DNA from: Nocardiopsis listeri NBRC 13360
GTDB taxonomy: Bacteria; Actinomycetota; Actinomycetes; Streptosporangiales; Streptosporangiaceae
DNA length: 64,000 bases
Assembly (NCBI RefSeq): GCF_001570765.1
Contig: NZ_BCSH01000006.1
Location: forward strand, 1 to 64,000
Direction of reading: 5' to 3'
Positions 7,269-22,765 of the stretch are shown here, piece after piece (position 1 is the stretch's first letter; every line of letters starts with the position of its first letter). The position numbers and the translations under genes were made by a program. The notes beneath the pieces were generated by a model that did no database searches, was not told the DNA's origin, and was given only the letters and a program-made list of their open reading frames with translations.

Positions 7269-7282
7269 ACGAACCCGACTCC

Positions 7283-7314
7283 GAGGGCCCCGACGTCGAC
7301 GCGTCGGGGCCCTC
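7283..7314 (+). terminator. Terminator after the MFS gene
   Basis: A perfect 12-bp stem (7283-7294 with 7303-7314) and an 8-base loop, 15 bases after the stop codon. Confidence 0.85.
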
Positions 7315-7369
7315 TGCGCGTCCGGCCCCGGACCGGTGGGTTCGGAACCCTCCCACCTACCCTGGGAGG

Positions 7370-10144
7370 ATGTCCGAAACGGCGATGACGATGGCGGAGG
7401 CCACTTGGCCCGGGGAGCTTCGTCCCTACCAACTCTCCGCCCTCGACGAGGTGGACCGCCGTTGGGGCCGTGGGGACCGGCGGACCTGGATCGTGCTCCC
7501 GCCGGGCTCGGGCAAGACCCTCGTCGGGCTGGAGGCCGCCCGAAGGCTGGGACGCCGAACCGTGGTGCTGGCGCCCAACACCGCCATCCAGGGCCAGTGG
7601 ATCCGGCACTGGGAATCCTTCGAACGCCCCAAGGGCTGTGACGCCGGCGGTGACCGTTCACTGGGGGACGCCGTCAACGTGCTCACCTACCAGTCCCTGG
7701 CGGTCTTCGACCCCGACGCCGAAACGGACGACGAGGGACGCTCACCCACCCCCGTCAGTGACCGGCTGCACCCCAACGGCCGCGCCCTGATCGACGCCCT
7801 GCACGACGCGGGCCCGCTCACCCTTCTGCTCGACGAGTGCCATCACCTGTTGCAGGTGTGGGGTCGTCTTCTCGCCGAGATCCTCGACGAACTCCCGGAC
7901 GCACACGTGATCGGGTTGACCGGCACACCGGCGGGCAGTCTCACCGGTACCGAACGCGATCTCGTCGACCGACTCTTCGCATCGCCCATCACCGGCGCGT
8001 CCATTCCCGCCCTGGTCCGCGACGGCTACCTGGCGCCCTTCGCCGAGCTCGTGTACGTCGTCGAACCCGCCCTCACCGAACACGAGTACCTCGCCGGTCA
8101 GGGCACCCGGTTCAGCACGATGTGCACCGACCTGCTCGAACCCGGGTTCGCGAGCACCGACTTCCTGCCCTGGTTGGACGCCCGTTTCGTCTCCCGCGAC
8201 ACCGCCGAGGGTGGGCGCCTGGGATGGGGGACCCTCGCCACGGACGACCCCGAACTCACCGACGCCGTGCTGCGGCTGCACCACGAGGGGCTGATCGCCC
8301 GACCGGACGGCGCCCGCGTGTACGAACAACATCGGCACCCGCCACGGGCGCAGGACTGGACGAGGCTGATCGGGGACTACGCCCACCACTGCCTGGACCC
8401 CGACACTCCACAGGACAAGGAGGCACGCGAACGGATCCGCGCCGCCCTGCCCTCCGTGGGATACCACCTGACCCGCCGTGGAATCCGCAGGGGCGCCTCA
8501 CCGGTGGACCGGGTGCTGGCTCGCAGCTCCGCCAAGTCCCTGGCCACCGTGGACATCCTCGCCACGGAACGGGACGCCGTCGGAACGCGACTGCGCGCCC
8601 TGGTGCTGTGCGACCACGAGCGCGCCACCGCCCGAACCCCCGCGACGCTGCGCGGGGTGCTTGCCGACGACGCCGGTTCGGCCTGGCTCCAGGTGGCCCG
8701 GCTGGCCGAGGATCCTCGCACCCGCGACCTGGATCCCGTTCTGGTCACCGGACGCACCGTCGCCGCCGGTGCCGGCACCGCGACGGCGCTGCTGGACTTC
8801 GCCCGCGCGGAAGCGCCCAAGGCCGACCTTTCCATCCGTGAGCTGGACGGTCTGCACGTGGTCGAGGGTTCCTGGTCCTCGCGCACCTGGGTGGGGGTGG
8901 TGACGCGTTTCCTGGAAAGCGGACGTTCCCAGGTCCTGGTGGGCACGCGTGCCCTGCTAGGCGAGGGGTGGGACGCGCGCGGGGTCAACACGGTGGTGGA
9001 CCTGACCACCGCCACCACCCCCACCGCCGTGGTGCAGAGCCGGGGGCGTGCGCTGCGGCTGGACCCGGAGTGGCCGGAGAAGGTCGCGCACACCTGGACC
9101 GTGGTGTGCGTGAGCCACGAACATCCGCGCGGGTCGGCCGACTGGGACCGGTTCGTGCGCAAACACGAGGGCTACCTGGGTGTGGGCGCCGACGGTGCGG
9201 TGATGAGCGGGGTCGCGCATGTGGACCCCGAGCTCTCGCCCTACGAACCGCCCACGGAGACGGCCCCGCTCAACACGCGAATGCTGGAGCGGGCGACCGA
9301 TCGGGACGGCACCCGGGACCGATGGCGGCTCGGTACCGGCTACGAGGACACCTTGCTGCCGACGTTGCGGGTGTACGAGCGGCGAGAGCGCCGGGCCGAG
9401 ACCACGGAAGCCGGAGTGGACGTGGCCGTGCCCGGACCACCCGAGGTGCTGGTGGGCGAACGGGGTATCGTGCCCACGCCCCGACGTCTCCCCGCGGGCC
9501 GGGACCTGCTTCCCACATGGGTGCTCGGTTCGCTCATGGCCGTGTGCCTGGTGGCGACGGCCTTCACAACGTGGCCGATCGCGCTCGCCCTCGTCTTCGG
9601 TACGGCCGCGGGCGTCCACTGGTGGCGGGCTCTCGGCCGGACCCACCGAGAGGCCGCACGTCTCAGATCCTTGGCACGCCGGCCGGTGGACACCTCCCGC
9701 TACGCGTGCGCGGTCGCCGAGGCCTTGTGTTCGGCGGACCTGTCCGACACCGGAGCGCGAGGGGTACGTGTGCACGTGGACACCGACGGGGTGTACCGGT
9801 TCACCCTGACCGACCCGGCTTCCGCGGAATTGTTCGCCGAATCCCTGGACGAGGTCCTCGCGCCCCTGATCGGCGACCCGCGCTATCTGATCCCCCGGCA
9901 TGTGCTCACCACACCGACCGAGGGGGCGGGGGAAGACGCCACCATGGCGGTCCTGCACGCGGTGCCCTCGGCCCTGGCCCGCAACAAGAAGGGGGCGCTG
10001 GCCTTCGAGCGGGCGTGGAACCGGTGGGTCTCCCTGGGCGAGGCGGTGCACACGCGCAACGAGACGGGCCGGGCCCTACTGGCCGCGCACCAGGGCAGCG
10101 CACCGTTGGAAGTAACCACCGCCCGCCGCCTGGTCTGGGACTGA
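7370..10144 (+). CDS. Superfamily 2 DEAD/DEAH-like helicase with a transmembrane hairpin
   Basis: A 924-residue protein starting at ATG 7370 directly behind GGGAGG. The N-terminal RecA-like domain has a Q-like RPYQLSALDEV segment, Walker A PPGSGKT (residues 44-50), motif Ia VLAPNT and a Walker B of the DECH type (155-158) followed by GLTGTPAG (motif III-like). The second RecA domain has GEGWDARGVN and motif VI QSRGRALR near residue 556. After this come about 150 residues without known motif, then two closely spaced hydrophobic segments (about 713-732 and 735-754) and a C-terminal domain of about 170 residues. ATP-driven remodelling of nucleic acid is expected; membrane tethering is unusual for this superfamily. 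No methylase or nuclease gene adjoins, so a restriction role is not supported. Confidence 0.8.
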   Translation: MSETAMTMAEATWPGELRPYQLSALDEVDRRWGRGDRRTWIVLPPGSGKTLVGLEAARRLGRRTVVLAPNTAIQGQWIRHWESFERPKGCDAGGDRSLGDAVNVLTYQSLAVFDPDAETDDEGRSPTPVSDRLHPNGRALIDALHDAGPLTLLLDECHHLLQVWGRLLAEILDELPDAHVIGLTGTPAGSLTGTERDLVDRLFASPITGASIPALVRDGYLAPFAELVYVVEPALTEHEYLAGQGTRFSTMCTDLLEPGFASTDFLPWLDARFVSRDTAEGGRLGWGTLATDDPELTDAVLRLHHEGLIARPDGARVYEQHRHPPRAQDWTRLIGDYAHHCLDPDTPQDKEARERIRAALPSVGYHLTRRGIRRGASPVDRVLARSSAKSLATVDILATERDAVGTRLRALVLCDHERATARTPATLRGVLADDAGSAWLQVARLAEDPRTRDLDPVLVTGRTVAAGAGTATALLDFARAEAPKADLSIRELDGLHVVEGSWSSRTWVGVVTRFLESGRSQVLVGTRALLGEGWDARGVNTVVDLTTATTPTAVVQSRGRALRLDPEWPEKVAHTWTVVCVSHEHPRGSADWDRFVRKHEGYLGVGADGAVMSGVAHVDPELSPYEPPTETAPLNTRMLERATDRDGTRDRWRLGTGYEDTLLPTLRVYERRERRAETTEAGVDVAVPGPPEVLVGERGIVPTPRRLPAGRDLLPTWVLGSLMAVCLVATAFTTWPIALALVFGTAAGVHWWRALGRTHREAARLRSLARRPVDTSRYACAVAEALCSADLSDTGARGVRVHVDTDGVYRFTLTDPASAELFAESLDEVLAPLIGDPRYLIPRHVLTTPTEGAGEDATMAVLHAVPSALARNKKGALAFERAWNRWVSLGEAVHTRNETGRALLAAHQGSAPLEVTTARRLVWD

Positions 10145-10414
10145 ACGCGCCTTCAGACGCCCATCTTCGAGAACGGTTCACGCGAATTCCTCATCAATAG
10201 GAAAACATTACAAGCACCTCCTTTCGGAAAACGAGAATTAGTTATCCGATCGTCTCTCAAAGGAGTGCTTTAATCTCGCTTTACCGATCTAGCATCAATT
10301 GTCGGCGAATGCCCATGCGGTGAGAACCGGTGTGCTCGTTCGCCGTCGCCGCAGCCCAGCCGCTTCCAGTGCGCGTGCGACATCCCCCACCGGTCGTGGA
10401 ACGGAAACGACCGG
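10145..10414. other. AT-rich intergenic island with an inverted repeat
   Basis: Positions 10185-10300 are much less GC-rich than anything nearby. Arms at 10212-10224 and 10259-10270 are complementary except for one extra base (AAGCACCTCCTTT against AAAGGAGTGCTT) around a 34-base AT-rich loop. No open frame with a start signal was seen. The block may hold the promoter of the following surface-protein gene. Confidence 0.55.
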
Positions 10415-11500
10415 ATGAGACGAAGTGAGGGTTCCTTGGCTCCCCGATCCCCCGAACACTCCCTACGCGCTGCCCAGGGCGCCGTGGCCTTCATCGCCTT
10501 CGGCGCGCTCACCCTGGCGGCGGCCCCCGCCCACGCCGACACCGGAGAGGTCGGTTACGCACGGGCGCACATCGCCGATGATGCCCGCATCCAGTTGTTC
10601 GGTCCTCGGGGCGGTGACGTCCACGGCACCTATCGCTACCTGGACGCCTACGAGGACGAGATCTTCGCCGACTCCCGGACCAGCATCCTGGTGGACGTGG
10701 ACACGGACGAACTCTTCTCACGTGTGCTCTTCGAGGAACTGCGCGTCGAACTCACCAAGGGCGACGTCGAGGCCATGCGTGAGGCGGCCTCCGGTGGCGT
10801 CTCCCGACCGGGCTTGGAGAACGCTGAGGGTTCCTCCGAAGAGCCCGTCCTCCATGCCTCCTTCACCGGCACCACGATCGAGACGCATCGGAACTGGGCC
10901 GGCGACGAGGAGTTCGTCCACGACGCGGGCGAGAGCTCCGTGGAGGTGAACGAGATCGGCGCCGAGTTCTCGTTCGTCACCAACACCTCCCCCTGGGAGG
11001 AGAGCATCGAAGGCACGCCCCTGTGGGGCGCCCACCACTCCCTCGAACTCGTCGTGGACTTCCCCGAGGAGGGGTTCAGCGTCACCTACGGGATCGGGGA
11101 CACCTGGGTCGCAGGCGACCTTCCGCCCGAGGAAGACGACGGAGACGAAGGCGGGGAGGACGACGAGAACGAAGGTGGGGACGGGGGCGACACCGGCGGC
11201 GAGGAGGGCGGCAAAGGTGACACCGATCCCGATGAGTCCGAGGATTCCGATGACGAGGGCGACCAGGACGAGCAGGGCGATCAGGGCGGCTCCGACCCCG
11301 AGAAGGACACTGAGGCCCCGGCCGACGAGAAGCCCGGCAAGGAAGACGACCTGGCCCGGACCGGTGTGCCCGTCCTCGGCCTGATCGCCGCAGGCACCGC
11401 GATCGCCGCCGGGGGTGGCGCCGCCGCCTACCTGGCCCGCCGCAGGAAGAACTCCGCTCCGGAAAAGGCGACGAACACCCCGGAGAACGCCGAGGGTTGA
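10415..11500 (+). CDS. Surface protein with LARTG sortase sorting signal
   Basis: A 361-residue protein for the cell surface. A signal peptide ends in AHA near residue 41. A domain of about 190 residues that I do not recognise follows, rich in beta-prone and acidic segments. Then come about 75 residues made mostly of Glu, Asp and Gly, a typical wall-spanning spacer. The C-terminus is a complete sorting signal: LARTG (313-317), a hydrophobic stretch and RRRK. LAxTG motifs are the substrates of class E sortases in high-GC actinobacteria, so covalent attachment to peptidoglycan is likely. No sortase gene is in the window. ATG 10415 is used; a TTG at 10436 behind GAGGG is a plausible alternative that still leaves a signal peptide. 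Confidence 0.75.
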   Translation: MRRSEGSLAPRSPEHSLRAAQGAVAFIAFGALTLAAAPAHADTGEVGYARAHIADDARIQLFGPRGGDVHGTYRYLDAYEDEIFADSRTSILVDVDTDELFSRVLFEELRVELTKGDVEAMREAASGGVSRPGLENAEGSSEEPVLHASFTGTTIETHRNWAGDEEFVHDAGESSVEVNEIGAEFSFVTNTSPWEESIEGTPLWGAHHSLELVVDFPEEGFSVTYGIGDTWVAGDLPPEEDDGDEGGEDDENEGGDGGDTGGEEGGKGDTDPDESEDSDDEGDQDEQGDQGGSDPEKDTEAPADEKPGKEDDLARTGVPVLGLIAAGTAIAAGGGAAAYLARRRKNSAPEKATNTPENAEG

Positions 11501-11535
11501 TCCCGTCGAGGACCTCTGGGCACGTGTGAAGTACC

Positions 11536-11567
11536 AACGGGGCGGCCCGTCACAGGGCCGCCCCGTT
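11536..11567. terminator. Bidirectional terminator between convergent genes
   Basis: A perfect 13-bp stem (11536-11548 with 11555-11567) and a 6-base loop, placed between the end of the surface-protein gene and the end of the leftward alditol oxidase gene. Confidence 0.85.
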
Positions 11568-11574
11568 CCCGTTC

Positions 11575-12822
11575 TCAGGACCGGGGAAAGTAGGAGTCCA
11601 CGAAGGGGTTGCGGAACTTCCCGGTCGGGTCGAAGCGCTCCAGCAGGCCGGCGAAGTCGGCCGCCCGTTCGTACCTACCGACGACCTCCAGGGGCCGCAG
11701 TGTCGTGAGCTTGCCCCAGTGCGGGCGCGCGCCCAGCGGGGCGAGCCGTTCCTCCACCTCCCGAAGGACCGGGGTCACCGCCTCCGGGTTCCGATGCCAG
11801 GTGAAGTGGAAGGTCACCGAGTCGCGGCCGTGAGCGGGGCTCAGCCACAGGTCATCGGCGCGGACCGTGCGCACCTCCCCGACGTACAGCACCGGGGCGA
11901 CGCGATGGCCGATCTCTGCGAGCGCCGCGAAGGCCTCGGGAGCGGCTTCCCGAGGCAGGTAGAGCTCGGACTGGAGTTCGGCACCGGCGCTCGGGGGCAG
12001 TTCCGGACGAAAGTGCGGCAGCCGATCACACCACGGGCCGGGCACGTCCAGCTGTTCGGTGGCGGGTTCGGTGGGCCACCCCGGGACCGGGTGCTGGGGA
12101 ACGTTCGCCGTACGTCCGCCGGACCACGCGTCCCCGGGCTCGTCCACGCGTCGCTTCAGCCAGACCCTTCCGGTTCGCTCGCGCCAGTCGGTGAACAGGC
12201 TGACACTGTAGGCGGCCCCGAAGACAGCGTCGAAGTTCTCCGCGACCTCGTCCAGGGGCACGTCGAGTCGGACCCGCTGGGAGACCTCGAAGGTGGGTTC
12301 GGTCTCCAGGGTGAGCCGGGTGACGATCCCCAACGCGCCGAGCGCCACGACCGCTCCGGGAAAGGCGTCGTCGCCCCGGCCCAACCGGACCGTCTCCCCA
12401 TCGGCGCCCATCAGTTCGATCTCGCGGACCGCCGCGGCCAGGCACCGTTGTCGGTCACCGGACCCATGCGTGCCGGTGGCGCAGGAGCCAGCCACCGAGA
12501 TGTGCGGCAACGACGCCAGGTTGCCCAGCGCGAGCCCCCTCCGGTGCAGCTCTGCGGCCAGGTCCGCGTACCGGGTGCCACCGGAGACGGTGACGGTGTC
12601 CCCGCCGACCTCGATCTCCTTGGGGAGCGCGTCCAACCGGACCAGGTCGTGTTCGGAATCCGCGACCTGGTTGAAGGAGTGCCCGCTGCCCAACGCCCGA
12701 ATCCGTGTGGTCTGCCGAACCAGGGACGAGAGTTCGTCGACACTGGCCGGCCGGTGGATACGCGGGCTGGTGTAGGTGAGGTTGCCGGCCCAGTTACGGG
12801 CCGGCGTGGTCGAGGCGGTCAT
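11575..12822 (-). CDS. Alditol oxidase (FAD-dependent, VAO family)
   Basis: A 415-residue flavoenzyme that should oxidise the terminal hydroxyl of sugar alcohols such as xylitol or sorbitol with release of hydrogen peroxide. It matches Streptomyces AldO along its whole length as I remember that protein: NWAGN near the N-terminus, LGSGHS with His48 as the covalent FAD attachment residue, LASLPHISVAGS in the PP-loop region, GALGIVTRLTLE, and a C-terminal HWGK followed by FDPTGKFRN. The start is the ATG at 12822 behind TGGAGG rather than one eight codons upstream, which lacks a site. There is no signal peptide. No dehydrogenase or sugar transporter lies nearby. It converges with the surface-protein gene on a shared terminator. 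Confidence 0.9.
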   Translation of the reverse strand: MTASTTPARNWAGNLTYTSPRIHRPASVDELSSLVRQTTRIRALGSGHSFNQVADSEHDLVRLDALPKEIEVGGDTVTVSGGTRYADLAAELHRRGLALGNLASLPHISVAGSCATGTHGSGDRQRCLAAAVREIELMGADGETVRLGRGDDAFPGAVVALGALGIVTRLTLETEPTFEVSQRVRLDVPLDEVAENFDAVFGAAYSVSLFTDWRERTGRVWLKRRVDEPGDAWSGGRTANVPQHPVPGWPTEPATEQLDVPGPWCDRLPHFRPELPPSAGAELQSELYLPREAAPEAFAALAEIGHRVAPVLYVGEVRTVRADDLWLSPAHGRDSVTFHFTWHRNPEAVTPVLREVEERLAPLGARPHWGKLTTLRPLEVVGRYERAADFAGLLERFDPTGKFRNPFVDSYFPRS

Positions 12823-13693: not shown

Positions 13694-14944
13694 TCAGACC
13701 GCTTCCTCCACGGAGGCCGCCCACAGTTCGAGGGCGGTGTCGACCTGGTCGCCGTCGACGATCAGCGCCGGGATGAACCGGACGACGTTGCCGGCCGGGC
13801 CGCAGGTCAGCAGAAGCAGACCGTTCTGGGCGGCGGCCTGCTGGGCACGCTGGGCGGTCTCCCCGTCGGGTGAACCATCGGCCTTCACGAACTCGCAGGC
13901 CTGCATCAGGCCGCGACCCCGCACGTCGCCGATGGCCGGGTTGGCCTCGGCGATCTTGGCCAGACCTTGCTGGAGGCGCTCGCCCTGGCGGGCGGCGTTC
14001 TCCACCAGCCCCTCTTCCTGGATGACGTCCAGGGTGGCCAGGGCACCGGCGCAGGCGACGGCGTTGCCGCCGTAGGTCCCGCCCTGGGATCCCGGCCAGG
14101 CCTTGTCCATGATCGCGCTGGAAGCGGCGATGGCGGAGAGCGGGAACCCGCTGGCGAGCCCCTTGGCCGTGATGACGATGTCCGGGCGAACGCCGGAGGG
14201 CTCGTGCCCCCAGAACGTTCCGGTGCGGCCGAAACCGGTCTGCACCTCGTCCAGGACCAGCAGGAACCCGTGCTGGTCGGCGCGCTCGCGCAGGCCTTGG
14301 AGGAACGCGTCCGGGACGGGAACGTAGCCGCCCTCTCCGAGGACCGGTTCGATGAACACCGCCGCGGTGTCCTTGGGCGAGGTGACCGTGGCGAACTGGT
14401 AGTCGAGCTCGCGCAGGGCGTAGGCGACGGCGTCGGCCTCGGACATGCCCAGCCGGTAGGCGTACGGGAAGGGCGTTACCACGACACCGGGGACGAGCGG
14501 CCCGATGCCCGCGCGGATCTTGGTGCCGGAGGTGGTCAGGGAGGCGGCGCCCATGGTGCGCCCGTGGAAGGAGCCCTGGAAGACGACGGCGTTCTGGCGT
14601 CCGGTGGCCTGGCGGGCCAGGCGCAGGGCCGCTTCGACCGCCTCACTGCCGGAGTTGACGTAGAACAGCCGATCGACGCCCTCGGGCAGGACCTCGCCGA
14701 GGCGTTCGGTGAGTCGCAGCAGGGGACGATGCATAACGGTGGTGTACTGGCCGTGGATCAGGGTCGCGACCTGTTCCTGGGCGGCGGCGACCACCTTGGG
14801 GTGGCAGTGTCCGGTGCTGGTCACACCGATCCCGGCCGTGAAGTCCAGGAAACGGCGGTCGTCCTCGTCGTAGATGTAGACACCCTCACCTCGTGCGGCG
14901 ACGACCGGGGTCGCCTGCTTGAGGACCGGGGAAAGCTCCGCCAT
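13694..14944 (-). CDS. gabT: Class III aminotransferase, 4-aminobutyrate type
   Basis: A 416-residue PLP enzyme that should move the amino group of 4-aminobutyrate or a similar omega-amino acid to 2-oxoglutarate. The PLP phosphate site (NSGSEAVEAALRLAR, from 97), LDEVQTGFGRTG (231-242) and the Schiff-base lysine (Lys261 in VITAKGLASG) are all present, and length is normal for the family. It diverges from an aldehyde dehydrogenase gene, and the product of this enzyme would be that enzyme's substrate. The shared promoter region carries one copy of the palindrome seen twice more at 19950 and 20071, so the GntR regulator at 16715-17428 probably controls it. The exact omega-amino acid is uncertain. 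Confidence 0.82.
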   Translation of the reverse strand: MAELSPVLKQATPVVAARGEGVYIYDEDDRRFLDFTAGIGVTSTGHCHPKVVAAAQEQVATLIHGQYTTVMHRPLLRLTERLGEVLPEGVDRLFYVNSGSEAVEAALRLARQATGRQNAVVFQGSFHGRTMGAASLTTSGTKIRAGIGPLVPGVVVTPFPYAYRLGMSEADAVAYALRELDYQFATVTSPKDTAAVFIEPVLGEGGYVPVPDAFLQGLRERADQHGFLLVLDEVQTGFGRTGTFWGHEPSGVRPDIVITAKGLASGFPLSAIAASSAIMDKAWPGSQGGTYGGNAVACAGALATLDVIQEEGLVENAARQGERLQQGLAKIAEANPAIGDVRGRGLMQACEFVKADGSPDGETAQRAQQAAAQNGLLLLTCGPAGNVVRFIPALIVDGDQVDTALELWAASVEEAV

Positions 14945-14979: not shown

Positions 14980-14993
14980 GATTGTTGACAATC
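14980..14993. promoter_or_regulatory. Probable GntR operator 1
   Basis: GATTGTTGACAATC, preceded by TAG, lies between the divergent aminotransferase and aldehyde dehydrogenase genes. The same 14-bp palindrome occurs at 19950-19963 and 20071-20084. TTGT-N2-ACAA symmetry is typical of FadR-subfamily GntR sites. Confidence 0.75.
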
Positions 14994-15084: not shown

Positions 15085-16551
15085 ATGTCGGATCGGGAAG
15101 CACGGGTCGTCGCACAGGTGAACAAGATGCTCTTCCTCGGGGGGAAGTGGCGTGAGGCGTCCACGGGGTCCACATTCCCCGTGGAGGACCCTTCCACCCG
15201 CAAGGTTCTGTGCGATGTCGCCGACGCGGGTAAGGAGGACGGCCTCGAAGCATTGGACGTCGCGACGCGTGTCCAGCCGGAGTGGGCCAAGACCTCGCCC
15301 CGGGAGCGCGGCGAGATCCTGTACCGGAGCTACCAACTGCTGATGGAGCGCCAGGAGGACTTGGCGGTTCTGATGACCCTAGAGATGGGCAAGCCACTCG
15401 CGGAGGCACGCGGCGAGATCGCCTACGCCGCCGAGTTCTTCCGCTGGTTCTCCGAGGAGGCCGTGCGGGTCGAGGGTGGTTTCTCCATCTCACCGGACGG
15501 TAAGTCGCGATTCCTCGTCATGCGACAGCCGGTCGGCCCCTGCATGCTCATCACCCCTTGGAACTTCCCCATGGCGATGGGAACCCGCAAGATCGGGCCG
15601 GCCATCGCGGCGGGGTGCACGATGATCCTCAAGCCGGCCCAGCAGACCCCTCTGTCGGCGCTGGCCCTGGCCGACATCCTCACCGAGGCGGGTCTGCCGG
15701 AAGGGGTCCTGAGCGTCCTGCCCACCACGGACGCGGGCGGGCTCACCGAACCCCTGCTCACCGACGGCCGGATCCGCAAGGTGTCGTTCACGGGATCGAC
15801 GGCGGTGGGCCGCAAGCTGCTGGAGCAGAGCGCCGGCCAGGTACTGCGCACCTCCATGGAGCTGGGCGGCAACGCGCCCTTCATCGTCTTCGACGACGCC
15901 GACCTGGACGCGGCCGTGGACGGTGCGATGCTCGCCAAGATGCGCAACATCGGGGAGGCGTGCACGGCGGCCAACCGGATCTACGCCCAGTCGGGAATCG
16001 CGGAGGAGTTCTCGGCCCGGCTCAGCGAGCGCATGGGCGCGCTCCGGTCGGGCCGTGGGGTGGAGGACAACGTGGACGTGGGTCCGCTGATCGACGAGAA
16101 GGCTCGGCGGAAGGTGCAGGACCTGGTCGACGACGCCGTCGAACGTGGGGCGAACGTACTGGTGGGCGGCGGCCCCGGGGAGGGTCCCGGGCACTTCTAC
16201 CAGCCGACGGTGCTGGCGAACGTGCCGTTCGCGGCGGAGCTGTCCACCACCGAGATCTTCGGCCCGGTGGCCCCGGTGATGCCCTTCGACACCGAGGAGG
16301 AAGTGCTCCACGCCGCCAACGACACCGAGTACGGCCTGGTCAGCTACCTGTACACGCGGGACCTGAACCGTGCGTTCCGGGTCAGTGAGGCCCTGGAGAC
16401 CGGCATGGTCGGCCTGAACCAGGGTGTGGTCTCCAACCCGGCGGCCCCGTTCGGCGGGGTGAAGCACTCCGGCCTGGGACGCGAAGGTGGCCGGGTCGGT
16501 ATCGACGAGTTCCTCGACATGAAGTACGTCGGGATCGGCGGGCTTTCCTAG
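15085..16551 (+). CDS. gabD: Succinate-semialdehyde dehydrogenase-like aldehyde dehydrogenase
   Basis: A 488-residue NAD(P)-dependent aldehyde dehydrogenase. All key residues are in place: TPWNFP (158-163), Lys183 in LKPAQQTP, FTGSTAVGR (235-243), the general base Glu259 in MELGGN and the nucleophile Cys293 in GEACTAANR. The whole pattern, including MGKPLAEARGEI, is that of the succinate-semialdehyde dehydrogenase group. With the divergent aminotransferase it would turn an omega-amino acid into a dicarboxylic acid, classically 4-aminobutyrate into succinate. The ATG at 15085 follows a GAGGAGCAAGAC site. A palindromic operator about 90 bases upstream is shared with gabT. Substrate assignment is by family only. 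Confidence 0.82.
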   Translation: MSDREARVVAQVNKMLFLGGKWREASTGSTFPVEDPSTRKVLCDVADAGKEDGLEALDVATRVQPEWAKTSPRERGEILYRSYQLLMERQEDLAVLMTLEMGKPLAEARGEIAYAAEFFRWFSEEAVRVEGGFSISPDGKSRFLVMRQPVGPCMLITPWNFPMAMGTRKIGPAIAAGCTMILKPAQQTPLSALALADILTEAGLPEGVLSVLPTTDAGGLTEPLLTDGRIRKVSFTGSTAVGRKLLEQSAGQVLRTSMELGGNAPFIVFDDADLDAAVDGAMLAKMRNIGEACTAANRIYAQSGIAEEFSARLSERMGALRSGRGVEDNVDVGPLIDEKARRKVQDLVDDAVERGANVLVGGGPGEGPGHFYQPTVLANVPFAAELSTTEIFGPVAPVMPFDTEEEVLHAANDTEYGLVSYLYTRDLNRAFRVSEALETGMVGLNQGVVSNPAAPFGGVKHSGLGREGGRVGIDEFLDMKYVGIGGLS

Positions 16552-16714: not shown

Positions 16715-17428
16715 TCAGTCCTTCGTGGTGGACTCGGGAAGTTCCTCGTCGTCCCCGGGTCCGTTGCCGCCCTCGGCGTTGATCCGTTCGACGGTGTCGA
16801 TCATGTGCGACTCGATCAGGGCGAGCAGACGTTCCTCCTCGCCCTCGACGATCGTGTCCAGGATCCGCCGGTGCTCCTCTAGGAGTTCCTCCGGTTCCGG
16901 GTAGACGTCCTGCATCACCGTCAGGCACATACGGGTCTCCACCAGCAGTGTCTGCGCCATGCGCTCCAATCGGGAGTTGCCCGAGCAGCTGACCAGGGCC
17001 CGGTGGAATTCCTGGTCGGCGTCGCTCATCTCCTCGCGGTCCCCCTTGGCCGCGGCCTGCGCCAACCGGTCGACGGCGGGGGTGAGGCGGGCCAGGGCCT
17101 CGCCCCGGTTGCCCCTCATGATCAGCTCGCACGCGGCACGTTCCACCGCGAGTCGGGCGACGTAGATGTCCCGCACGTCCGTGGGGGTCAACTCGCACAC
17201 GAACAGGCCCCTGTGCCGTTCACTGCGGAGCAGACCCTCCTGAACCAGACGCTGCATCGCTTCGCGGAGCGGTCCCCGGCTCACCCCCAGGCGCCCGGCG
17301 AGTTCGGCCTCGCCCAGCTGGTCCCCCGGGGAGAGGGAGCCGTACATGATCGCCGAGCGCAGTTGGTCGGCGATCAGCTCGGCGGTGGAGCGCCGTGGGA
17401 CGGGTCTGAGCTGACCAGGGGATGACAT
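16715..17428 (-). CDS. GntR-family regulator, FadR/FCD subfamily
   Basis: A 237-residue transcription factor. A winged-helix domain covers about residues 12-75 (IADQLRSAIMYGSLSPGDQL, then LAGRLGVSRGPLREAMQRL, then a wing). An all-helical FCD ligand domain covers about 85-215, with family metal/ligand residues in the DQEFHRAL and EEHRRILDTI segments and a late ESHM. Such proteins usually repress catabolic genes until an organic acid binds. It is the last gene of the leftward operon starting at 19865, with gaps of about 115, 60 and 118 bases between genes. No copy of the 14-bp palindrome lies in front of it, so if it controls the regulon its own level rises with the operon. The C-terminal 25 residues are acidic and probably disordered. 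Confidence 0.85.
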   Translation of the reverse strand: MSSPGQLRPVPRRSTAELIADQLRSAIMYGSLSPGDQLGEAELAGRLGVSRGPLREAMQRLVQEGLLRSERHRGLFVCELTPTDVRDIYVARLAVERAACELIMRGNRGEALARLTPAVDRLAQAAAKGDREEMSDADQEFHRALVSCSGNSRLERMAQTLLVETRMCLTVMQDVYPEPEELLEEHRRILDTIVEGEEERLLALIESHMIDTVERINAEGGNGPGDDEELPESTTKD

Positions 17429-17543
17429 GTGGTCTTCCCTTCTCGGGACTCGATTCGGATTCCTGACGGGCGGTCGACACCTCGACCACGAACACGGGGG
17501 CCGGACTCAGGCGGACGAACCGGACATGTGCCGGCCCCCGAGG

Positions 17544-18290
17544 TTAACGGGCGACGAACGGGTCCCTGACAGTGGAGGCACCCGTTCGGAACAGGTTGCC
17601 GGGCCCGTTGCGCGCACCGCACCGCCCCACCAACCGAAGCCCCTCCCAGACGCTCACCTGGTTGGCGGTGAGCACCGTCTTGCCCAGGAGTGCCTCCATG
17701 GGGTCGATGAGGTCGGCGCTGTGCAGAGCGGTGTCCGGCACCAGGACCACCTCCGACCTCGGGTGGTCGTTGGTGATGACGTAGTCGACCACGTCGTCGG
17801 GTTCCAGTCGCCCCACCTCGGCGGCGGTGGGGATGCCGTGGCTGGCCAGGGACACCACCGAGACACCCGCGTCGTCGAGGAAGTCCACGAACCGTTGACC
17901 GACGTCGTCGGGGTAGGTCGCGGCGATGGCGACCCTTGATACTCCCAACTGGCGCAGGGCGTGCACGAACGCGAAGGAGGTGCTGGACGTGGGCACGCCC
18001 ACGACGTCGCGCACCCCTTGGACCTGGCGTTGTGCCCCTTGCCAGCCGAACACGAAGCTACCGCTGGTACAGGCCCAGACCGCGGCATCGACCTCCAGGG
18101 CGGCGAGCTCCTGCGCCCCCTTGGCGAGCACGCCTTCACTGCCCACGTCCATGAGGGCGTCCACACGGTGGGCGTCCTCGCGCATGAGCGTGTGCACGAG
18201 AGGTAGTTCGACGTCATCGAGCAGGTCGGCGAAGGCCGGGTAGTCGTCTTCGGCGCTGTGGCCGGGATACAGGAATCCGACGCGGGTCAT
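17544..18290 (-). CDS. Asp/Glu racemase-superfamily enzyme (maleate isomerase / arylmalonate decarboxylase-like), single-Cys form
   Basis: A 248-residue enzyme of the superfamily that contains maleate cis-trans isomerase, arylmalonate decarboxylase and EutA. The ATG at 18290 follows GAGGAGAGAC. The start has VGFLYPGHSAEDDYP, and the first catalytic cysteine is Cys74 in VWACTSGSF. At the place of the second cysteine the sequence reads VPDTALHSADLI, with Asp instead of Cys. Racemases and isomerases need two cysteines, while decarboxylases use one, so a decarboxylase- or lyase-like reaction is possible; this is inference. Its neighbour at 18350-19252 is a diverged paralogue with both cysteines. 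Both are expected to act on small dicarboxylate-like acids in the cytoplasm. Confidence 0.75.
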   Translation of the reverse strand: MTRVGFLYPGHSAEDDYPAFADLLDDVELPLVHTLMREDAHRVDALMDVGSEGVLAKGAQELAALEVDAAVWACTSGSFVFGWQGAQRQVQGVRDVVGVPTSSTSFAFVHALRQLGVSRVAIAATYPDDVGQRFVDFLDDAGVSVVSLASHGIPTAAEVGRLEPDDVVDYVITNDHPRSEVVLVPDTALHSADLIDPMEALLGKTVLTANQVSVWEGLRLVGRCGARNGPGNLFRTGASTVRDPFVAR

Positions 18291-18349
18291 GTCTCTCCTC
18301 TGGGTCGAGGCGCTCTCCGTGGCCGGTGGTCGGTGGTCGGTGGGTGCCG

Positions 18350-19252
18350 TCAGGCGGCGCTGGGCGCGGCCACGTCGATCAGGCTCTGTCCGCGTGCGAC
18401 GGCGCGGCGGCCGGCCGCGTTCATGACCGCCCACATGGTGACCTGGTTGGCCGCTATGACGGGTTTACCCAGTTCGCGCTCCAAGGGCGCGATGATGTCG
18501 TAGGTGAGGACGTTGGTGCAGCTGATGTAGACGGCCTGGGCGTCGGGGTGGTCCGCCTCGTGCACGGCGTGGGCGACCTCGGCGTAGGTGACCTTCCAGA
18601 TGTGGCTGAGCAGGCCGAGTCCGATGCTCGAGGTGACGCCGACGCCGTGTTCGGCGAGGTAGTCCAGGAGTCGGTCGGTCACGCTGTCCACGTACGGGGT
18701 GACCACCGCGATCCGGTCGGTGCCGAGGGCCTTGAGCGCCTCGATCAGGGCGCCCGATGTGGTGGCCGCCCTTGGGGCTCCGGCCGCCAGCATGGTGCGG
18801 TGGAGTCCGCGTTCGCCCTCGGCCCCGTGCACGAAGCTGCCCGAGGCACAGGCGTAGCCGACGGCCAGGGGTTCGGGTGCCATGAGCGCCTTGACGGCGC
18901 GGGTCACCGCCTTGCCCTTGCTGAGGGCCGCGGCCTGGTCGACCGTCACCGGAACGTGGACGTAGGGCAGGCGGGTGACGTGCAAGGACACGTCGTCGGG
19001 CGTCCATCGCCACAGTTCGCGGTCGAGCGCGAAGTCGTAGGGGGCTAGCACGCCGACCCCGGCCTGCCAGGGGGTCGTGGTGGCGGCCGACAGTTCGACG
19101 ACCTTCGGGCCGTTCGCCTGCCCGGACTCCCGGTCGGGCGCCCGTCCGGTCGCTTCCCGGTCGGTCTCGGGCCCGGGCCGCCGCGCCGAACCCGTCGAGT
19201 TCGTGTGCTCGGTGCCGGGTCGGGGCTCCGGTCCGGTTCCCTCGGTTCTCAT
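18350..19252 (-). CDS. Asp/Glu racemase-superfamily enzyme, two-Cys form
   Basis: A 300-residue paralogue of the next gene downstream. After about 50 polar residues that look disordered, the fold begins at VGVLAPYDFALD. Both catalytic cysteines are kept: Cys135 in GYACASGSF and Cys245 in YISCTNVLT. The C-terminal segment PVIAANQVTMWAVMNAAG resembles the TANQVSVWEGLRLVG segment of the paralogue and of EutA/maleate isomerase proteins. Racemisation or cis-trans isomerisation of a small acid is therefore possible. The ATG at 19252 is preceded by GGGAGGTGAG at a slightly long distance. It lies second in the operon, after the DUF3830 gene. The long N-terminal extension is unusual for the family. 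Confidence 0.75.
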   Translation of the reverse strand: MRTEGTGPEPRPGTEHTNSTGSARRPGPETDREATGRAPDRESGQANGPKVVELSAATTTPWQAGVGVLAPYDFALDRELWRWTPDDVSLHVTRLPYVHVPVTVDQAAALSKGKAVTRAVKALMAPEPLAVGYACASGSFVHGAEGERGLHRTMLAAGAPRAATTSGALIEALKALGTDRIAVVTPYVDSVTDRLLDYLAEHGVGVTSSIGLGLLSHIWKVTYAEVAHAVHEADHPDAQAVYISCTNVLTYDIIAPLERELGKPVIAANQVTMWAVMNAAGRRAVARGQSLIDVAAPSAA

Positions 19253-19370
19253 CGGTCACTCACCTCCCGTTGACGTGCTCTGTCCAGCCGTGTGCGGTGT
19301 TCCGGATGTGCCGGCACGGGCCTCGGTACGCGGTGGGTGTCGAGGCCGCCGTGGGTCCTGTGGCCGCCGT

Positions 19371-19865
19371 TCAGCGGTCGAGCCGTTCGTACAGGAGGCG
19401 TTCACCGACGCTGCCGGAGCGCCAGACGTCGTTGCAGGCCTCGGCCATGGCGGGCAGGTTCTCCACCACGGTGGCGAACACGTTGCCGGGGACCCATCCC
19501 ACGTCTCCGTTGAGCAGCAGGTTGTTCCGGCCGTAGAAGAGGGCCAGGTCGATGACCCCCGGCAGGTGATCGATGCCCTTGTCCTCCTTGAAGGAGCGGT
19601 CGAGCATGCCGGAGTCGAAGGAGAAGTAGACGAGGTCACCGGGGATCGGGGTGACGGTGGGGTTCTCCTGTCCGGGTTCGGGGTCGGCGAACCGCGGCAC
19701 CATCGTGTAGACCTCGTTGCGCGCGTACTTGGCGTGTTGGACGGCGTCGCCCTGCGGGAGGGCGTTCCACACCGCTTCACATGTGCGGGGCGCTTCCTTG
19801 TCGAGGAGTTCGGCGACGCAGGAGACCCCGCGTCGGGTGAGCGTGACGGTCATGTACCTGGGCAA
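19371..19865 (-). CDS. DUF3830 family protein (cyclophilin-like fold)
   Basis: A protein of up to 164 residues that I assign to DUF3830 from its start (TRRGVSCVAELLDKEAPRTC, followed by a VWNALP segment) and length. The family is thought to have a cyclophilin-like barrel and has no established function; members often sit beside amidase, racemase-superfamily and transporter genes for small nitrogen compounds. The first start is a TTG at 19865 six bases after GAAGGGA; the ATG at 19853 is an alternative. It is the first gene of the leftward operon and is preceded by two copies of the GntR palindrome. A role in binding or isomerising the pathway substrate is speculation. Confidence 0.68.
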   Translation of the reverse strand: MPRYMTVTLTRRGVSCVAELLDKEAPRTCEAVWNALPQGDAVQHAKYARNEVYTMVPRFADPEPGQENPTVTPIPGDLVYFSFDSGMLDRSFKEDKGIDHLPGVIDLALFYGRNNLLLNGDVGWVPGNVFATVVENLPAMAEACNDVWRSGSVGERLLYERLDR

Positions 19866-19949
19866 GTGGGTTCCCTTCGGCGGGGCCTACATGAGTCCTG
19901 GGAGACCGACCCGAGGGGCCGTTCGGGCCGCTGATGTCACGATGCCATT

Positions 19950-19963
19950 GATTGTCGACAATC
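19950..19963. promoter_or_regulatory. Probable GntR operator 2
   Basis: GATTGTCGACAATC is a perfect 14-bp palindrome, 85 bases before the DUF3830 gene start, and read leftward is preceded by TAG as at operator 1. Confidence 0.75.
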
Positions 19964-20070
19964 CTACGATCAATCTCCGGAGTCAGGCAATAGACCCGAG
20001 ACGAACGGGTATCCCGCCAGTGCCGACGCGGGTGCAAGGTGTGCTTTTGCCCAAGAACAGCCCTTTTGTG

Positions 20071-20084
20071 GATTGTTGACAATC
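20071..20084. promoter_or_regulatory. Probable GntR operator 3
   Basis: GATTGTTGACAATC, extended to GGATTG/CAATCC symmetry, lies 85 bases before the 2-hydroxyacid dehydrogenase start. Operators 2 and 3 are 121 bases apart centre to centre, which would allow separate control of each divergent promoter or looping between them. Confidence 0.75.
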
Positions 20085-20168
20085 CTATGTGGGCTCCTTA
20101 GCGTTTCCGGTGCAGGGCGAAACCAGCACCTCGACGGCACCGCATCACCAGTCGCTACCGGAAAGCTC

Positions 20169-21212
20169 GTGCCAGTGAACCGTCCTCCCGGCTCCACCAC
20201 CGTCTCCGCACCCGAACGACCGCGTCTGCTCGTCCTCCACGGCGAGGACCTCCCACCGGGGCACGAACGTCTCGACGACCACCCCGGGTTGGGCGAGGTC
20301 GTCTACACCGACGCCGAAGGGCTGTCCGCCGCCCTTCCCGGTGCCGACGCGCTCCTGGTCTGGGACCTGTTCACCGAAGCGCTCGCCCGATCCTGGCCCA
20401 GGGCCGACCGACTGCGGTGGGTGCACGCCGCCACCACCGGGGTGGACAACCTGATGTTCCCCGGGCTGGTCGAGAGCGACGCCGTGGTCACCAACTCGCG
20501 CGGGGTCTTCGACGAGCACATCGCCGAATACGTGCTGGGCCTGGTCATCGCCTTCGCCAAGGACTTCCACCGCACGTCGGAGCTACAGCGCGGGCACCGG
20601 TGGCTGCACCGCGAGACCGAGCGCGTCACCGGCAAACGCGCGCTGGTCGTCGGTACCGGCCCCATCGGTCGAGCGATCGGGCGCAAGCTCGCCGCGGTGG
20701 GGATGGAGGTCCGCGCCTCCGGCAGCCACGCCCGCGACGGCGATCCCGACTTCGGTCACGTGGTCGCCTCCAGCCTGGCGGAACGCACCGATGACGACGA
20801 CCCCACGTTGTTCCAGGCCCTCCCCGAGGCCGACTACGTGGTCGTCGCCGCGCCGCTCACCGCCGCCACCCGAGGCCTCGTCGACCGGCGCTTCCTCGAC
20901 CTCATGAAGCCCACCGCGCGCCTGATCAACATCGCCCGTGGCCCCATCGTCGTCCAGTCCGACCTGGTCAACGCCCTCCAAGAGGGTTCGATCGCCGGCT
21001 CGGCCCTGGACGTCTTCGAACGGGAACCGCTCAAGGCCATCAACCCGCTGTGGGGCCTGCCCGGGTCCATCGTCTCGCCGCACATGTCCGGTGACGTGGT
21101 CGGGTGGCGCGATGACCTGGTCGAGCTGTTCCTGGACAACCTCGCCCGTTACCTGGACGGGCGGGAACTGCGCAACGTCGTGGACAAGGACCGGGGCTAC
21201 GTACCCGGCTGA
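20169..21212 (+). CDS. D-isomer-specific 2-hydroxyacid dehydrogenase
   Basis: A 347-residue NAD(P)-dependent enzyme that should interconvert a 2-hydroxy acid and a 2-oxo acid. The substrate domain has HAATTGVDNL and SRGVFDEHIAEYVLG; the nucleotide domain has VVGTGPIGRAIG; the catalytic Arg and Glu appear in INIARGPIV and DVFEREPL; and the catalytic His sits in SPHMSGD. The frame is open back to a TTG inside operator 3, but that would place the start in the operator, so GTG 20169 (or GTG 20175), shortly after GGAAAG, is preferred. It is the first gene of the rightward pair with the amidase and is probably repressed by the GntR protein at 16715-17428. Confidence 0.8.
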   Translation: MPVNRPPGSTTVSAPERPRLLVLHGEDLPPGHERLDDHPGLGEVVYTDAEGLSAALPGADALLVWDLFTEALARSWPRADRLRWVHAATTGVDNLMFPGLVESDAVVTNSRGVFDEHIAEYVLGLVIAFAKDFHRTSELQRGHRWLHRETERVTGKRALVVGTGPIGRAIGRKLAAVGMEVRASGSHARDGDPDFGHVVASSLAERTDDDDPTLFQALPEADYVVVAAPLTAATRGLVDRRFLDLMKPTARLINIARGPIVVQSDLVNALQEGSIAGSALDVFEREPLKAINPLWGLPGSIVSPHMSGDVVGWRDDLVELFLDNLARYLDGRELRNVVDKDRGYVPG

Positions 21213-21238
21213 CCCCTCGCGTGACTTGGGAGGCTGAA

Positions 21239-22765
21239 GTGACGATCCGTTCCGAACGGGCCGGGACCGAAGACACGGGCACGGCCGCCGACCCGGCCGT
21301 CGGCACCGCGGGGAACGCGCCCGGGTCCGACCCCGCGGTCCCCCGCGCCCGTTCCGGTGCGAGCGCACCGGCCGACCTGTCCGCCGAACAACTGCTGCGC
21401 GCCTACTCCACCGGGGAGCTCTCCCCGGTGGAGGCCGTCGACTCCGTGCTCGAACGCATCGAGCAGGACAACCCGGCGCTCAACGCGTTCTGCCTGGTGC
21501 GCCCCGAGGAGGCCCGCGAGGCCGCGCGCGCCTCGGCCGAACGGTGGCGGCGCGGCGAACCGGTCGGGAAGCTCGACGGGGTGCCCGCCTCCATCAAGGA
21601 CATCCACCTGACGAAGGGGTGGCCCACCCTGAAGGGGTCGGTGACCTCTTCCCAGGAGGGCCCGTGGGAGGAGGACTCCCCGGTCACGGCACGCCTGCGC
21701 GAGCACGGGGCGGTGTTCGTCGGCAAGACCACCACCCCCGAACTGGCGTGGAAGGGGGTCACGGACAACCCGCTCACCGGGATCACCCGTAACCCCTGGG
21801 ACCTGTCCACCACTCCGGGCGGCTCCAGCGGCGGCTCGGCGGCGGCGGTCGCCGCGGGGATGGGTCCACTGTCGACGGGGACCGACGGGGGCGGGTCCAT
21901 CCGCATCCCGGCGAGCTTCACCGGGGTCTGCGGGATCAAGCCCACGTGGGGGTTGGTGCCGCACTACCCGGCGAGCCCGTTCGGGTCACTGGCGCACACC
22001 GGTCCGATGACCCGCACCGTCGGCGACATGGCGCTGATGCTGGACGTGATCTCCGGCTTCGACTCCCGCGACTGGATGGCGATGCCGCCCCCCGCTCCCG
22101 GTCTGGCCGAGGCCGGACGCGGAGAGGACCCGCGCGAACTGGTCCGAGGGATGCGGATCGCCTACAGCCCGACCCTGGGTGGGTTGGACGTGGACCCGGA
22201 GGTGGCCCGCTCGGTCGCCGACGCGGTGCGCGTGTTCGAGGGGCTCGGCGCCAAGGTGGAGGAGGCCGACCCGGAGCTGCCCGATTCCATGGCGGAGTTC
22301 CACGTGCTCTGGTACTCGGGCGCGGCCAAGGCCACCGAGAAGCTCACCGACCGTGAGCGTGACCTTCAGGACCCGGGACTGCGCGAGATCATCGAGGAAG
22401 GACTGTCCTACTCGGCGCACGACTACCTGACCGCGATGGCCCTGCGGATGGCCATGGGCGCTCGTATGGGCCGCTTCCACGAGACCTACGATCTGTTGCT
22501 CACGCCGACCATGCCGATGGTGGCCTTCGAGGCCGGACTGGAGTCGCCGCCCGAGCTGTCCGGGCGAAGGTGGACCTCCTGGGCCGGTTTCAGCTATCCG
22601 TTCAACATGACCCAGCAGCCGGCGGCGAGCGTGCCGTGCGGGTTCAGCGATTCGGGGTTGCCGATCGGCCTCCAGATCGTGGGTCCACGACACTCGGATC
22701 CCCGGGTGCTGCGGGCGTGCCGAGCCTTCGAACTGGCCCGCCCGTGGGCCGGGCGCCGTCCCTGA
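21239..22765 (+). CDS. Amidase (amidase-signature family)
   Basis: A 508-residue hydrolase that cleaves a carboxylic amide to acid and ammonia. The Ser-cisSer-Lys triad is complete and normally spaced: Lys120 in ASIKDIH, cis-Ser196 in GGSSGGS and nucleophile Ser220 in GGGSIRIPAS. GTG 21239, five bases after GGGAGG, is preferred to a GTG six codons upstream. The N-terminal 40 residues are polar and variable. It follows the 2-hydroxyacid dehydrogenase gene by 26 bases, so the two share a transcript. In this locus it could release the acid that the racemase-superfamily enzymes then act on; the substrate cannot be read from sequence. Confidence 0.88.
   Translation: MTIRSERAGTEDTGTAADPAVGTAGNAPGSDPAVPRARSGASAPADLSAEQLLRAYSTGELSPVEAVDSVLERIEQDNPALNAFCLVRPEEAREAARASAERWRRGEPVGKLDGVPASIKDIHLTKGWPTLKGSVTSSQEGPWEEDSPVTARLREHGAVFVGKTTTPELAWKGVTDNPLTGITRNPWDLSTTPGGSSGGSAAAVAAGMGPLSTGTDGGGSIRIPASFTGVCGIKPTWGLVPHYPASPFGSLAHTGPMTRTVGDMALMLDVISGFDSRDWMAMPPPAPGLAEAGRGEDPRELVRGMRIAYSPTLGGLDVDPEVARSVADAVRVFEGLGAKVEEADPELPDSMAEFHVLWYSGAAKATEKLTDRERDLQDPGLREIIEEGLSYSAHDYLTAMALRMAMGARMGRFHETYDLLLTPTMPMVAFEAGLESPPELSGRRWTSWAGFSYPFNMTQQPAASVPCGFSDSGLPIGLQIVGPRHSDPRVLRACRAFELARPWAGRRP

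Follow-up and report, generated by a model that had tools for sequence, protein, structure and literature searches.

A conserved DUF3830 gene cluster of Nocardiopsis listeri and its probable role in EutD-independent ectoine catabolism

Which compound would a bacterium degrade with a protein of the DUF3830 family, two divergent EutA-like proteins (RacA and RacB), a D-2-hydroxyacid dehydrogenase (HADH), an amidase (AMI), an aminotransferase (AT), and a semialdehyde-dehydrogenase-like protein (ALDH)? These genes form a cluster in a stretch of 64,000 nucleotides, referred to as the window, which comprises positions 1 to 64,000 of contig NZ_BCSH01000006.1 of Nocardiopsis listeri NBRC 13360 (contig C6 of host genome G000, 5.69 Mb in 154 contigs; G, L, and f codes are analysis labels for genomes, loci, and families, the latter numbered f1, f2, and so on). 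A preliminary description had placed them, as a possible undescribed degradation pathway, at 16715-22765; all the genes it named are present, although AT and ALDH lie just outside that span. The cluster is probably (with a likelihood of roughly 0.6) a catabolic unit for ectoine and/or 5-hydroxyectoine that is independent of EutD (DoeA) and EutE (DoeB). This assignment is made because related clusters adjoin genes of the Ehu transporter, because the operators of the cluster also occur at EhuB, ProP, and BCCT carrier genes, and because no strong DoeA was found in genomes carrying the cluster. All eight gene families were verified with Pfam and NCBIfam for the window proteins, and the features are as follows.

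13694-14944, minus strand: AT, class III aminotransferase (Pfam and NCBIfam), whose nearest solved relatives are γ-aminobutyrate (GABA) transaminases
14980-14993: operator GATTGTTGACAATC in the AT/ALDH divergent promoter
15085-16551, plus strand: ALDH, succinate-semialdehyde-dehydrogenase-like (SSADH-like; Pfam and NCBIfam), with a proposed role in semialdehyde oxidation
16715-17428, minus strand: GntR/FCD regulator (family match), probable local regulator of the cluster
17544-18290, minus strand: RacA, Amdase/EutA-like, with the second catalytic cysteine replaced by aspartate (PDTALH motif)
18350-19252, minus strand: RacB, Amdase/EutA-like, with both catalytic cysteines present
19371-19865, minus strand: DUF3830, cyclophilin-like (PF12903, 207 bits against a gathering cut-off of 26)
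19950-19963: operator GATTGTCGACAATC, a perfect palindrome, in the DUF3830/HADH divergent promoter
20071-20084: operator GATTGTTGACAATC in the DUF3830/HADH divergent promoter
About 20169-21212, plus strand: HADH, D-2-hydroxyacid dehydrogenase (Pfam)
About 21239-22765, plus strand: AMI, amidase-signature amidase of the PRK06169 family (NF004815, 773 bits against a cut-off of 506)

That these genes belong together is indicated by a close-relative set consisting of the best 80 of 537 relatives (GTDB loci, 1.49 Mb together). AMI, HADH, DUF3830, RacB, RacA, and GntR keep identical order and strands in 77 of the 77 loci holding all six, a conservation that, judged from sequence comparison, is far beyond chance. 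One or two core genes are missing from L020, L028, and L068, each of which stops at a contig end on that side. GntR was found in 78 of the 80 loci, AT in 64, and ALDH in 54, many loci being cut short. The closest DUF3830 loci come from Nocardiopsis, with up to 98% identity, and among these best 80 loci the cluster is present in many Nocardiopsis, Saccharopolyspora, and Actinomadura genomes. Several of the other frequent neighbour groups look like frames antisense to core genes, and the rest lie in lineage-specific flanks. The record of L015 is named Glycomyces fuscus, with a DUF3830 92% identical to that of the window; this label of the organism is probably obsolete or mistaken.

Evidence for co-regulation is provided by the 14-base palindrome GATTGTYRACAATC, present in one copy in the AT/ALDH divergent promoter and in two in the DUF3830/HADH divergent promoter. 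GntR/FadR-type regulators bind inverted repeats of this kind. With at most one mismatch, the palindrome occurs at three places in the 5.69-Mb host genome, all of them in the two divergent promoters of the cluster, and a reversed-pattern control yielded 0 matches there. In the 80-locus set, a TTGTNNACAA site was detected in the HADH/DUF3830 gap of 79/79 loci with both genes and, for 63 of the 64 loci where AT was found, in the 400 bases preceding AT, with an additional site between RacB and RacA in 33 of the 80 loci; these three positions account for 215 of the 216 TTGTNNACAA sites in the 1.49 Mb, and one lies elsewhere. The cluster is apparently one conserved, co-regulated unit and most likely a dedicated, GntR-controlled catabolic one. 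The idea of a single undescribed catabolic unit, as put forward in the preliminary description, is supported by the conserved order, the dedicated operator, and the lack of a description in the literature searched, and the gene-neighbourhood check that it had proposed for DUF3830 showed the parts co-occurring in all 77 complete loci, with shared operators indicating co-regulation as far as such comparison can tell. Plain GABA catabolism was considered for AT and ALDH, which resemble GabT and SSADH, and was rejected, as they sit at the cluster's own operator.

Beyond these close relatives, DUF3830 was found in 43 of 396 genomes sampled from the phylum (host included), with a full-length protein (>185 bits) in 19 of them and a shorter type in the remainder. 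The 20-kb surroundings were inspected for 16 of the 18 other full-length genomes (G098 twice) and three short-type genomes, giving 20 regions, along with two further contigs, the one bearing the cluster in G163 and the one bearing Ehu in G205. RacA, RacB, HADH, AMI, DUF3830, GntR, and often AT and ALDH recur in distant families in rearranged form, and a gene content kept despite rearrangement argues for shared function, not for an inherited neighbourhood. In G008, for instance, the regulon is divided between two loci about 90 kb apart, L113 (HADH, an M24 DoeA-like gene, a class I aminotransferase, M20, DUF3830, and AT) and L134 (ALDH, AMI, a ProP-like gene, GntR, RacA, RacB, and EhuABCD). A wider operator count, covering the full-length genomes apart from G000, G128, and G161 (16 of 19), placed 28 of 32 sites, spread over 12 genomes, in cluster loci, with a reversed control of 0. 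No site was present in the cluster loci of G171 and G334 (both f3 and without GntR) or in those of G205 and G065; G334 has two sites outside its GntR-less cluster, one of which precedes another GntR-family gene. An operator-like site at G392:4270014 (L158) was set aside, since it falls within a very long open frame and seems to have no connection with the cluster.

The shorter DUF3830 proteins represent a second subfamily, common in f19 genomes and exemplified by L131 (8597-10302), where the gene adjoins an M20 peptidase and a GntR gene lies some kb away. L132 (G177:C23:24402-25787) has three DUF3830-family genes in tandem, whose neighbours are a gene of the GntR family and an ABC-ATPase-like one. 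Plasmid-borne relatives of DUF3830 amounted to two weak matches (27-30% identity) in seemingly unrelated contexts, one of the records being without annotation, and were set aside.

The connection with ectoine comes primarily from transport genes. In 4/4 f3 loci having full-length DUF3830 (L115, L117, L119, and L120) the cluster abuts EhuBCDA, and in L117, the only f3 locus tested, the scores exceed the NCBIfam cut-offs for EhuB (277.1 against 190.9 bits), EhuC (223.0 against 197.0), EhuD (279.2 against 205.2), and EhuA (357.1 against 345.4). Rac genes and EhuBCDA also share one 20-kb region in G226 (L128), with EhuB and EhuA over the cut-off, and RacB lies beside EhuB on a short contig of G205 (L144). 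All six ATTGTYRACAAT sites of G008 fall within L113 and L134, one of them immediately upstream of EhuB. The operator further precedes the ProP-like gene in L134, and ProP-like and M24 genes in L124 (f19); also in f19 genomes, it separates a gene of the glutamate dehydrogenase family from one for a BCCT carrier (L125 and L161). Three unrelated types of osmolyte carrier (Ehu, ProP, and BCCT) are thereby tied to one regulon, and ectoines are a substrate common to members of these three types. EhuB over the cut-off was likewise found in 12 of the 19 full-length genomes versus 20 of the 377 others (Fisher p 3e-10); this statistic ignores relatedness, so that adjacency and shared operators weigh more.

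The host itself carries EctA (170.4 bits, cut-off 120.6), EctB (635.1, cut-off 552.2), and EctC (192.6, cut-off 128) on contig C86, followed by EhuBCDA, as well as EctD (423.3, cut-off 336.5) on contig C26, and because these four are present it probably makes both ectoine and hydroxyectoine. Its EhuB scores 212.8 bits (cut-off 190.9), with EhuC, EhuD, and EhuA assigned by BLAST only. At this locus (L133, G000:C86:2500-22400) ectABC is directly followed by ehuBCDA at 6553-12608, so that synthesis and import genes stand together, and no GntR operator is present. In Nocardiopsis gilva, ehuABCD is reported to adjoin the ect genes and both solutes to accumulate (PMC5884947).

DoeA/EutD and EutE/DoeB were searched for in 39 genomes, i.e., the 19 with full-length DUF3830 and 20 other EhuB-positive ones. 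The host has no DoeA/EutD (TIGR02993) match at E ≤ 1e-40 and no EutE/DoeB (TIGR02994) match at E ≤ 1e-15. DoeA above 500 bits was absent from all 19 full-length genomes versus present in 8 of the 20 others, four of these eight exceeding the 613-bit cut-off; within the full-length group the best scores were 416 bits (G008) and 173 bits (G098), and the other 17 genomes gave no match at E ≤ 1e-40. Restricted to EhuB genomes, the contrast is 0/12 versus 8/20 (p 0.014). EutE exceeded the cut-off in none of the 39 genomes, with weak matches in 16, the host not among them. EutB and EutC are missing from the cluster, no genome-wide search for them having been made. Lack of EutD and EutE had led the preliminary description to dismiss ectoine degradation; neither was found in the genome, but the exclusion is not supported, since Ehu adjacency and shared operators point to ectoine. 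An EutD-based arrangement was observed in two loci of genomes without full-length DUF3830, L152 (5179-15564) and L150 (6261-12234), where DoeA (633 bits in L152) and an M20 deacetylase-like gene come after EhuBCDA-type genes; L152 also has EutB/EutC-like genes in divergent orientation.

How such a cluster might work can be approached from its enzyme families. All 98 distinct RacB sequences retain the two catalytic cysteines of maleate isomerases and two-Cys racemases. RacA does not have this pair: 94 of its 102 sequences carry the first cysteine, and 99 of the 102 have, within the PDTALH motif, an aspartate for the second. The Gly74/Cys188 pattern of arylmalonate decarboxylase (PMC4996985) is absent from both. 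DUF3830 has invariant residues in 15 sequences that include H44, E67, N68, D77, Y111, and W148. Its predicted model (pLDDT 90.2) matches 3kop, a solved structure of the DUF3830 family (Z 27.8), followed by KslB (18.2), McbB (18.0), TM1367 (14.7), and cyclophilins (about 13), where the Z scores come from a VIA-align rerun on Foldseek's list and folds beyond that list are possible. A profile of DUF3830 matched McbB, deposited as cucumopine synthase, weakly (E 0.003), and KslB with E 0.62. KslB and McbB are Pictet-Spenglerases, which couple amino acids to carbonyl compounds via a C=N bond, and because of the modelled likeness to them DUF3830 might have the ring C=N of ectoine as its target.

A tentative order of reactions, doubtful in its details, can be proposed from these assignments. 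Briefly, ectoine or hydroxyectoine would be taken from the cell's own pool or imported by EhuABCD, and DUF3830 together with RacA and RacB would open the cyclic amidine by acting at its alpha-carbon and C=N; in a hydroxyectoine variant, loss of water followed by hydrolysis could give a 4-acetamido-2-oxo acid. HADH would then reduce the 2-oxo acid to a D-2-hydroxy acid, AMI would remove the acetyl group as a deacetylase, and omega-transamination by AT with oxidation by ALDH would convert the 4-amino-2-hydroxy acid into D-malate, or into tartrate if the 3-hydroxyl is kept. In some genomes, this product could be consumed by a linked tartrate/D-malate dehydrogenase. The general scheme suggested in the preliminary description, in which the amidase frees an acid, the racemase-superfamily enzymes reshape it, and the aminotransferase and dehydrogenase pass it to central metabolism, is compatible with this route.

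Linkage to a tartrate dehydrogenase was seen in G050, where, in L159 (2417-6168, on C89), an operator outside the main cluster lies at the 5′ end of an ALDH frame (63% identity to the window ALDH) followed by TtuC (490.5 bits against the tartrate dehydrogenase cut-off of 470.4) and a glycerate kinase, the latter seen beside TtuC at this one locus only. TtuC directly follows ALDH in the cluster of G235 (L122), and a TtuC-like gene lies a few kb beyond GntR in L077. Tartrate dehydrogenases over the cut-off occur in 10 of the 19 full-length genomes versus 3 of the 20 other EhuB genomes (p 0.019). Because of this linkage, the presence of HADH, the GABA-transaminase-like AT, and the SSADH-like ALDH, the D-2-hydroxy acid route to D-malate or tartrate is weakly preferred over a route to aspartate. 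A more far-reaching proposal, which should be regarded as speculative, is that a wholly different ectoine chemistry is widespread in Actinomycetota, in which DUF3830, aided by the Cys/Cys and Cys/Asp Rac pair, would open the ring, the alpha-nitrogen would be lost, and the carbon would leave as a D-2-hydroxy acid yielding D-malate or tartrate (then pyruvate or glycerate) instead of diaminobutyrate and L-aspartate.

Within the ectoine assignment, the intermediates could still be the classical ones, a possibility that is rather improbable on present evidence: ring opening would give N-acetyl-diaminobutyrate, AMI would replace EutE, AT and ALDH would serve as DoeD and DoeC, and the pathway would end in L-aspartate, as the known one does (PMC5924519, PMC13188858), while HADH and the Rac proteins would handle only the hydroxyl of hydroxyectoine. 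AT and ALDH do belong to the same broad families as DoeD and DoeC, with 31% identity between AT and an Ensifer DoeD-type protein as well as host EctB and 44% (blastp) between ALDH and an Ensifer DoeC-type protein, and the operator-bearing locus of G008 contains M24 DoeA-like and M20 genes. However, AT is much closer to GABA transaminases (nearest solved relative 1sf2, 309.5 bits with phmmer) than to DoeD (158-164 bits with blastp), a 2-hydroxyacid enzyme such as HADH has no role in a pathway to aspartate, and the association with TtuC would be left unexplained. The resemblance of RacA and RacB to EutA raises the further, similarly doubtful option that the cluster is a hydroxyectoine-specific branch, functionally analogous to EutABC, with ectoine itself either left to other genes or not broken down. 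EctC was found in 26 of the 39 genomes and EctD in 24, and all 13 full-length genomes with ectoine synthase also have EctD, which fits such a branch, as do the M24 genes within the same regulon in G008 and G098. EctD is not discriminating, though, since it also occurs in 11 of the 13 ectoine-synthase genomes without full-length DUF3830, and the deoxygenated product would still need its ring opened, for which 17 of the 19 full-length genomes offer no DoeA match (E ≤ 1e-40).

Less likely than either is another nitrogenous solute or amide, such as an acetylated diamino acid, an opine-like imine, or a lactam, carried by an Ehu-like transporter. Ehu is one of the polar amino acid transporters, ProP and BCCT carriers accept several compounds, and DUF3830 is related to McbB, called cucumopine synthase in its Protein Data Bank (PDB) entry. 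Against a different solute stand the convergence of three unrelated osmolyte-carrier types on the regulon, the position of the host Ehu genes directly behind ectABC, and the cluster-adjacent f3 EhuB of L117, whose nearest solved relative is Sinorhizobium EhuB (2q88) at 199.6 bits versus 84.6 for the next PDB sequence (147.5 versus 100.3 for the host EhuB); the residues presumably forming the ectoine site (a Glu, three aromatic residues, and an Arg) are kept in both EhuB proteins with aromatic swaps. The substrates favoured in the preliminary description, namely maleamate, hydantoins, and lactams, found no support, and nicotinate, maleamate, and hydantoin routes were set aside, as nothing linking to them was seen in the loci examined, the genomes not having been searched for the other genes of those pathways. 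Haladaptatus racemase matches beside hydantoinase genes are distant and belong to a different context.

Several observations weigh against the assignment to ectoine catabolism or against parts of the proposed chemistry. The window cluster has no transporter of its own, and the host Ehu genes accompany ectABC on another contig and lack the operator, as would be expected of an osmoprotectant importer. EhuB over the cut-off is missing from 7 of the 19 full-length genomes, and its co-occurrence with DUF3830 is confounded by lineage, 10 of 11 named f3 genomes having EhuB and four of them DUF3830; the DoeA contrast is similarly confounded, with all eight DoeA genomes in the single family f17. The f3 loci have neither GntR nor operator, so that the shared-operator argument is inapplicable there, AT and ALDH were not found in the 20-kb stretches of L115, L117, L119, and L120, and G065 has GntR without an operator site. 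Six further f3 loci with EhuB and without DUF3830 (L135-L140) have RacA beside EhuBCDA, HADH in four of them, and neither RacB nor AMI, which means that parts of the cluster are separable; at least L137 has an IclR-type gene next after EhuA. Since the regulon includes an M24 gene in G008 and in G098 (416 and 173 bits to DoeA), part of the gene set may serve hydroxyectoine alone. EutA (TIGR02990) is the best NCBIfam model for both RacA (92.6 bits) and RacB (106.9 bits), yet these scores are far under the equivalog cut-off of 318 bits. The first cysteine is missing from eight RacA sequences, three of them from f19 loci and the other five from the Ehu-only f3 loci L135-L140, where one of the six keeps it, and because of this loss RacA chemistry may be independent of a thiol. 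Finally, no tartrate dehydrogenase over the cut-off was found in the host genome, which leaves the D-malate end weak for this host.

Compared with the proteobacterial ehuABCD-eutABCDE/doeABCD clusters, the present one is alike in its EhuABCD linkage in several families, its EutA-like proteins, class III aminotransferase, SSADH-like dehydrogenase, and single local regulator, but it lacks EutB, EutC, EutD, and EutE, of which EutD and EutE were also not found in the host genome. Instead, it contains two divergent EutA-like proteins, DUF3830, a D-2-hydroxyacid dehydrogenase, and an amidase, and its regulator is of the GntR/FCD type in place of the MocR-type EnuR of most, though not all, known clusters. 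It probably represents a pathway of a known kind in a form that does without EutD. The putative Gram-positive EutD-based ectoine clusters of PMC13188858 (2026) include Actinomycetota and can have EhuABCD or other carriers; those of Bacillaceae are without EutE, and the authors call the clusters tentative. L152, with its DoeA, M20 deacetylase-family gene, and EutB/EutC-like genes, looks like this type. That survey, self-described as non-exhaustive, was seeded on EutD/EutB, neither of which occurs in the present cluster, and the data set of PMC8739950, a paper that calls it unknown what exactly EutABC do, required adjacent eutD/eutE; surveys counting consumers in these ways would be blind to this cluster.

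Relative to the Asp/Glu racemase superfamily (EutA, arylmalonate decarboxylase, and maleate isomerase), RacA and RacB share the Pfam Amdase matches and RacB the two cysteines, whereas RacA departs from it by the aspartate and neither has the decarboxylase pair. The Pictet-Spenglerases KslB and McbB have the closest fold outside DUF3830's own family, with the weak McbB profile match and a shared HA...N..Y segment, but DUF3830 is a single small domain of about half their chain length. No recognised description of such a cluster, whether under ectoine, EutABC, or the enzyme set, and no mention of DUF3830 was found in the full-text literature searched, most subscription journals being outside its coverage. 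Ectoines are widespread microbial solutes, and some ectoine-producing actinomycetes are industrial producers. If the assignment is true, it would give a first role to DUF3830, a family for which there is a solved structure (3kop) and no annotation, provide a test system for what EutA-type enzymes do, and explain how ectoine-producing actinomycetes may recycle their own osmolyte.

Some details of annotation deserve mention. A scan for sigma-70 promoters and terminators gave no signal above shuffles, and Rfam returned a small signal recognition particle RNA and tRNAs and nothing further. Regular-expression catalytic motifs for HADH, AMI, and AT missed many sequences and were not used. The longest HADH frame opens at 20073, a start that falls inside the operator at 20071-20084, and for this reason GTG 20169 (or 20175) is the likelier start; several frames of HADH homologues have 321-346 amino acids. 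The longest AMI frame opens at 21221, and GTG 21239 is preceded by GGAGG.

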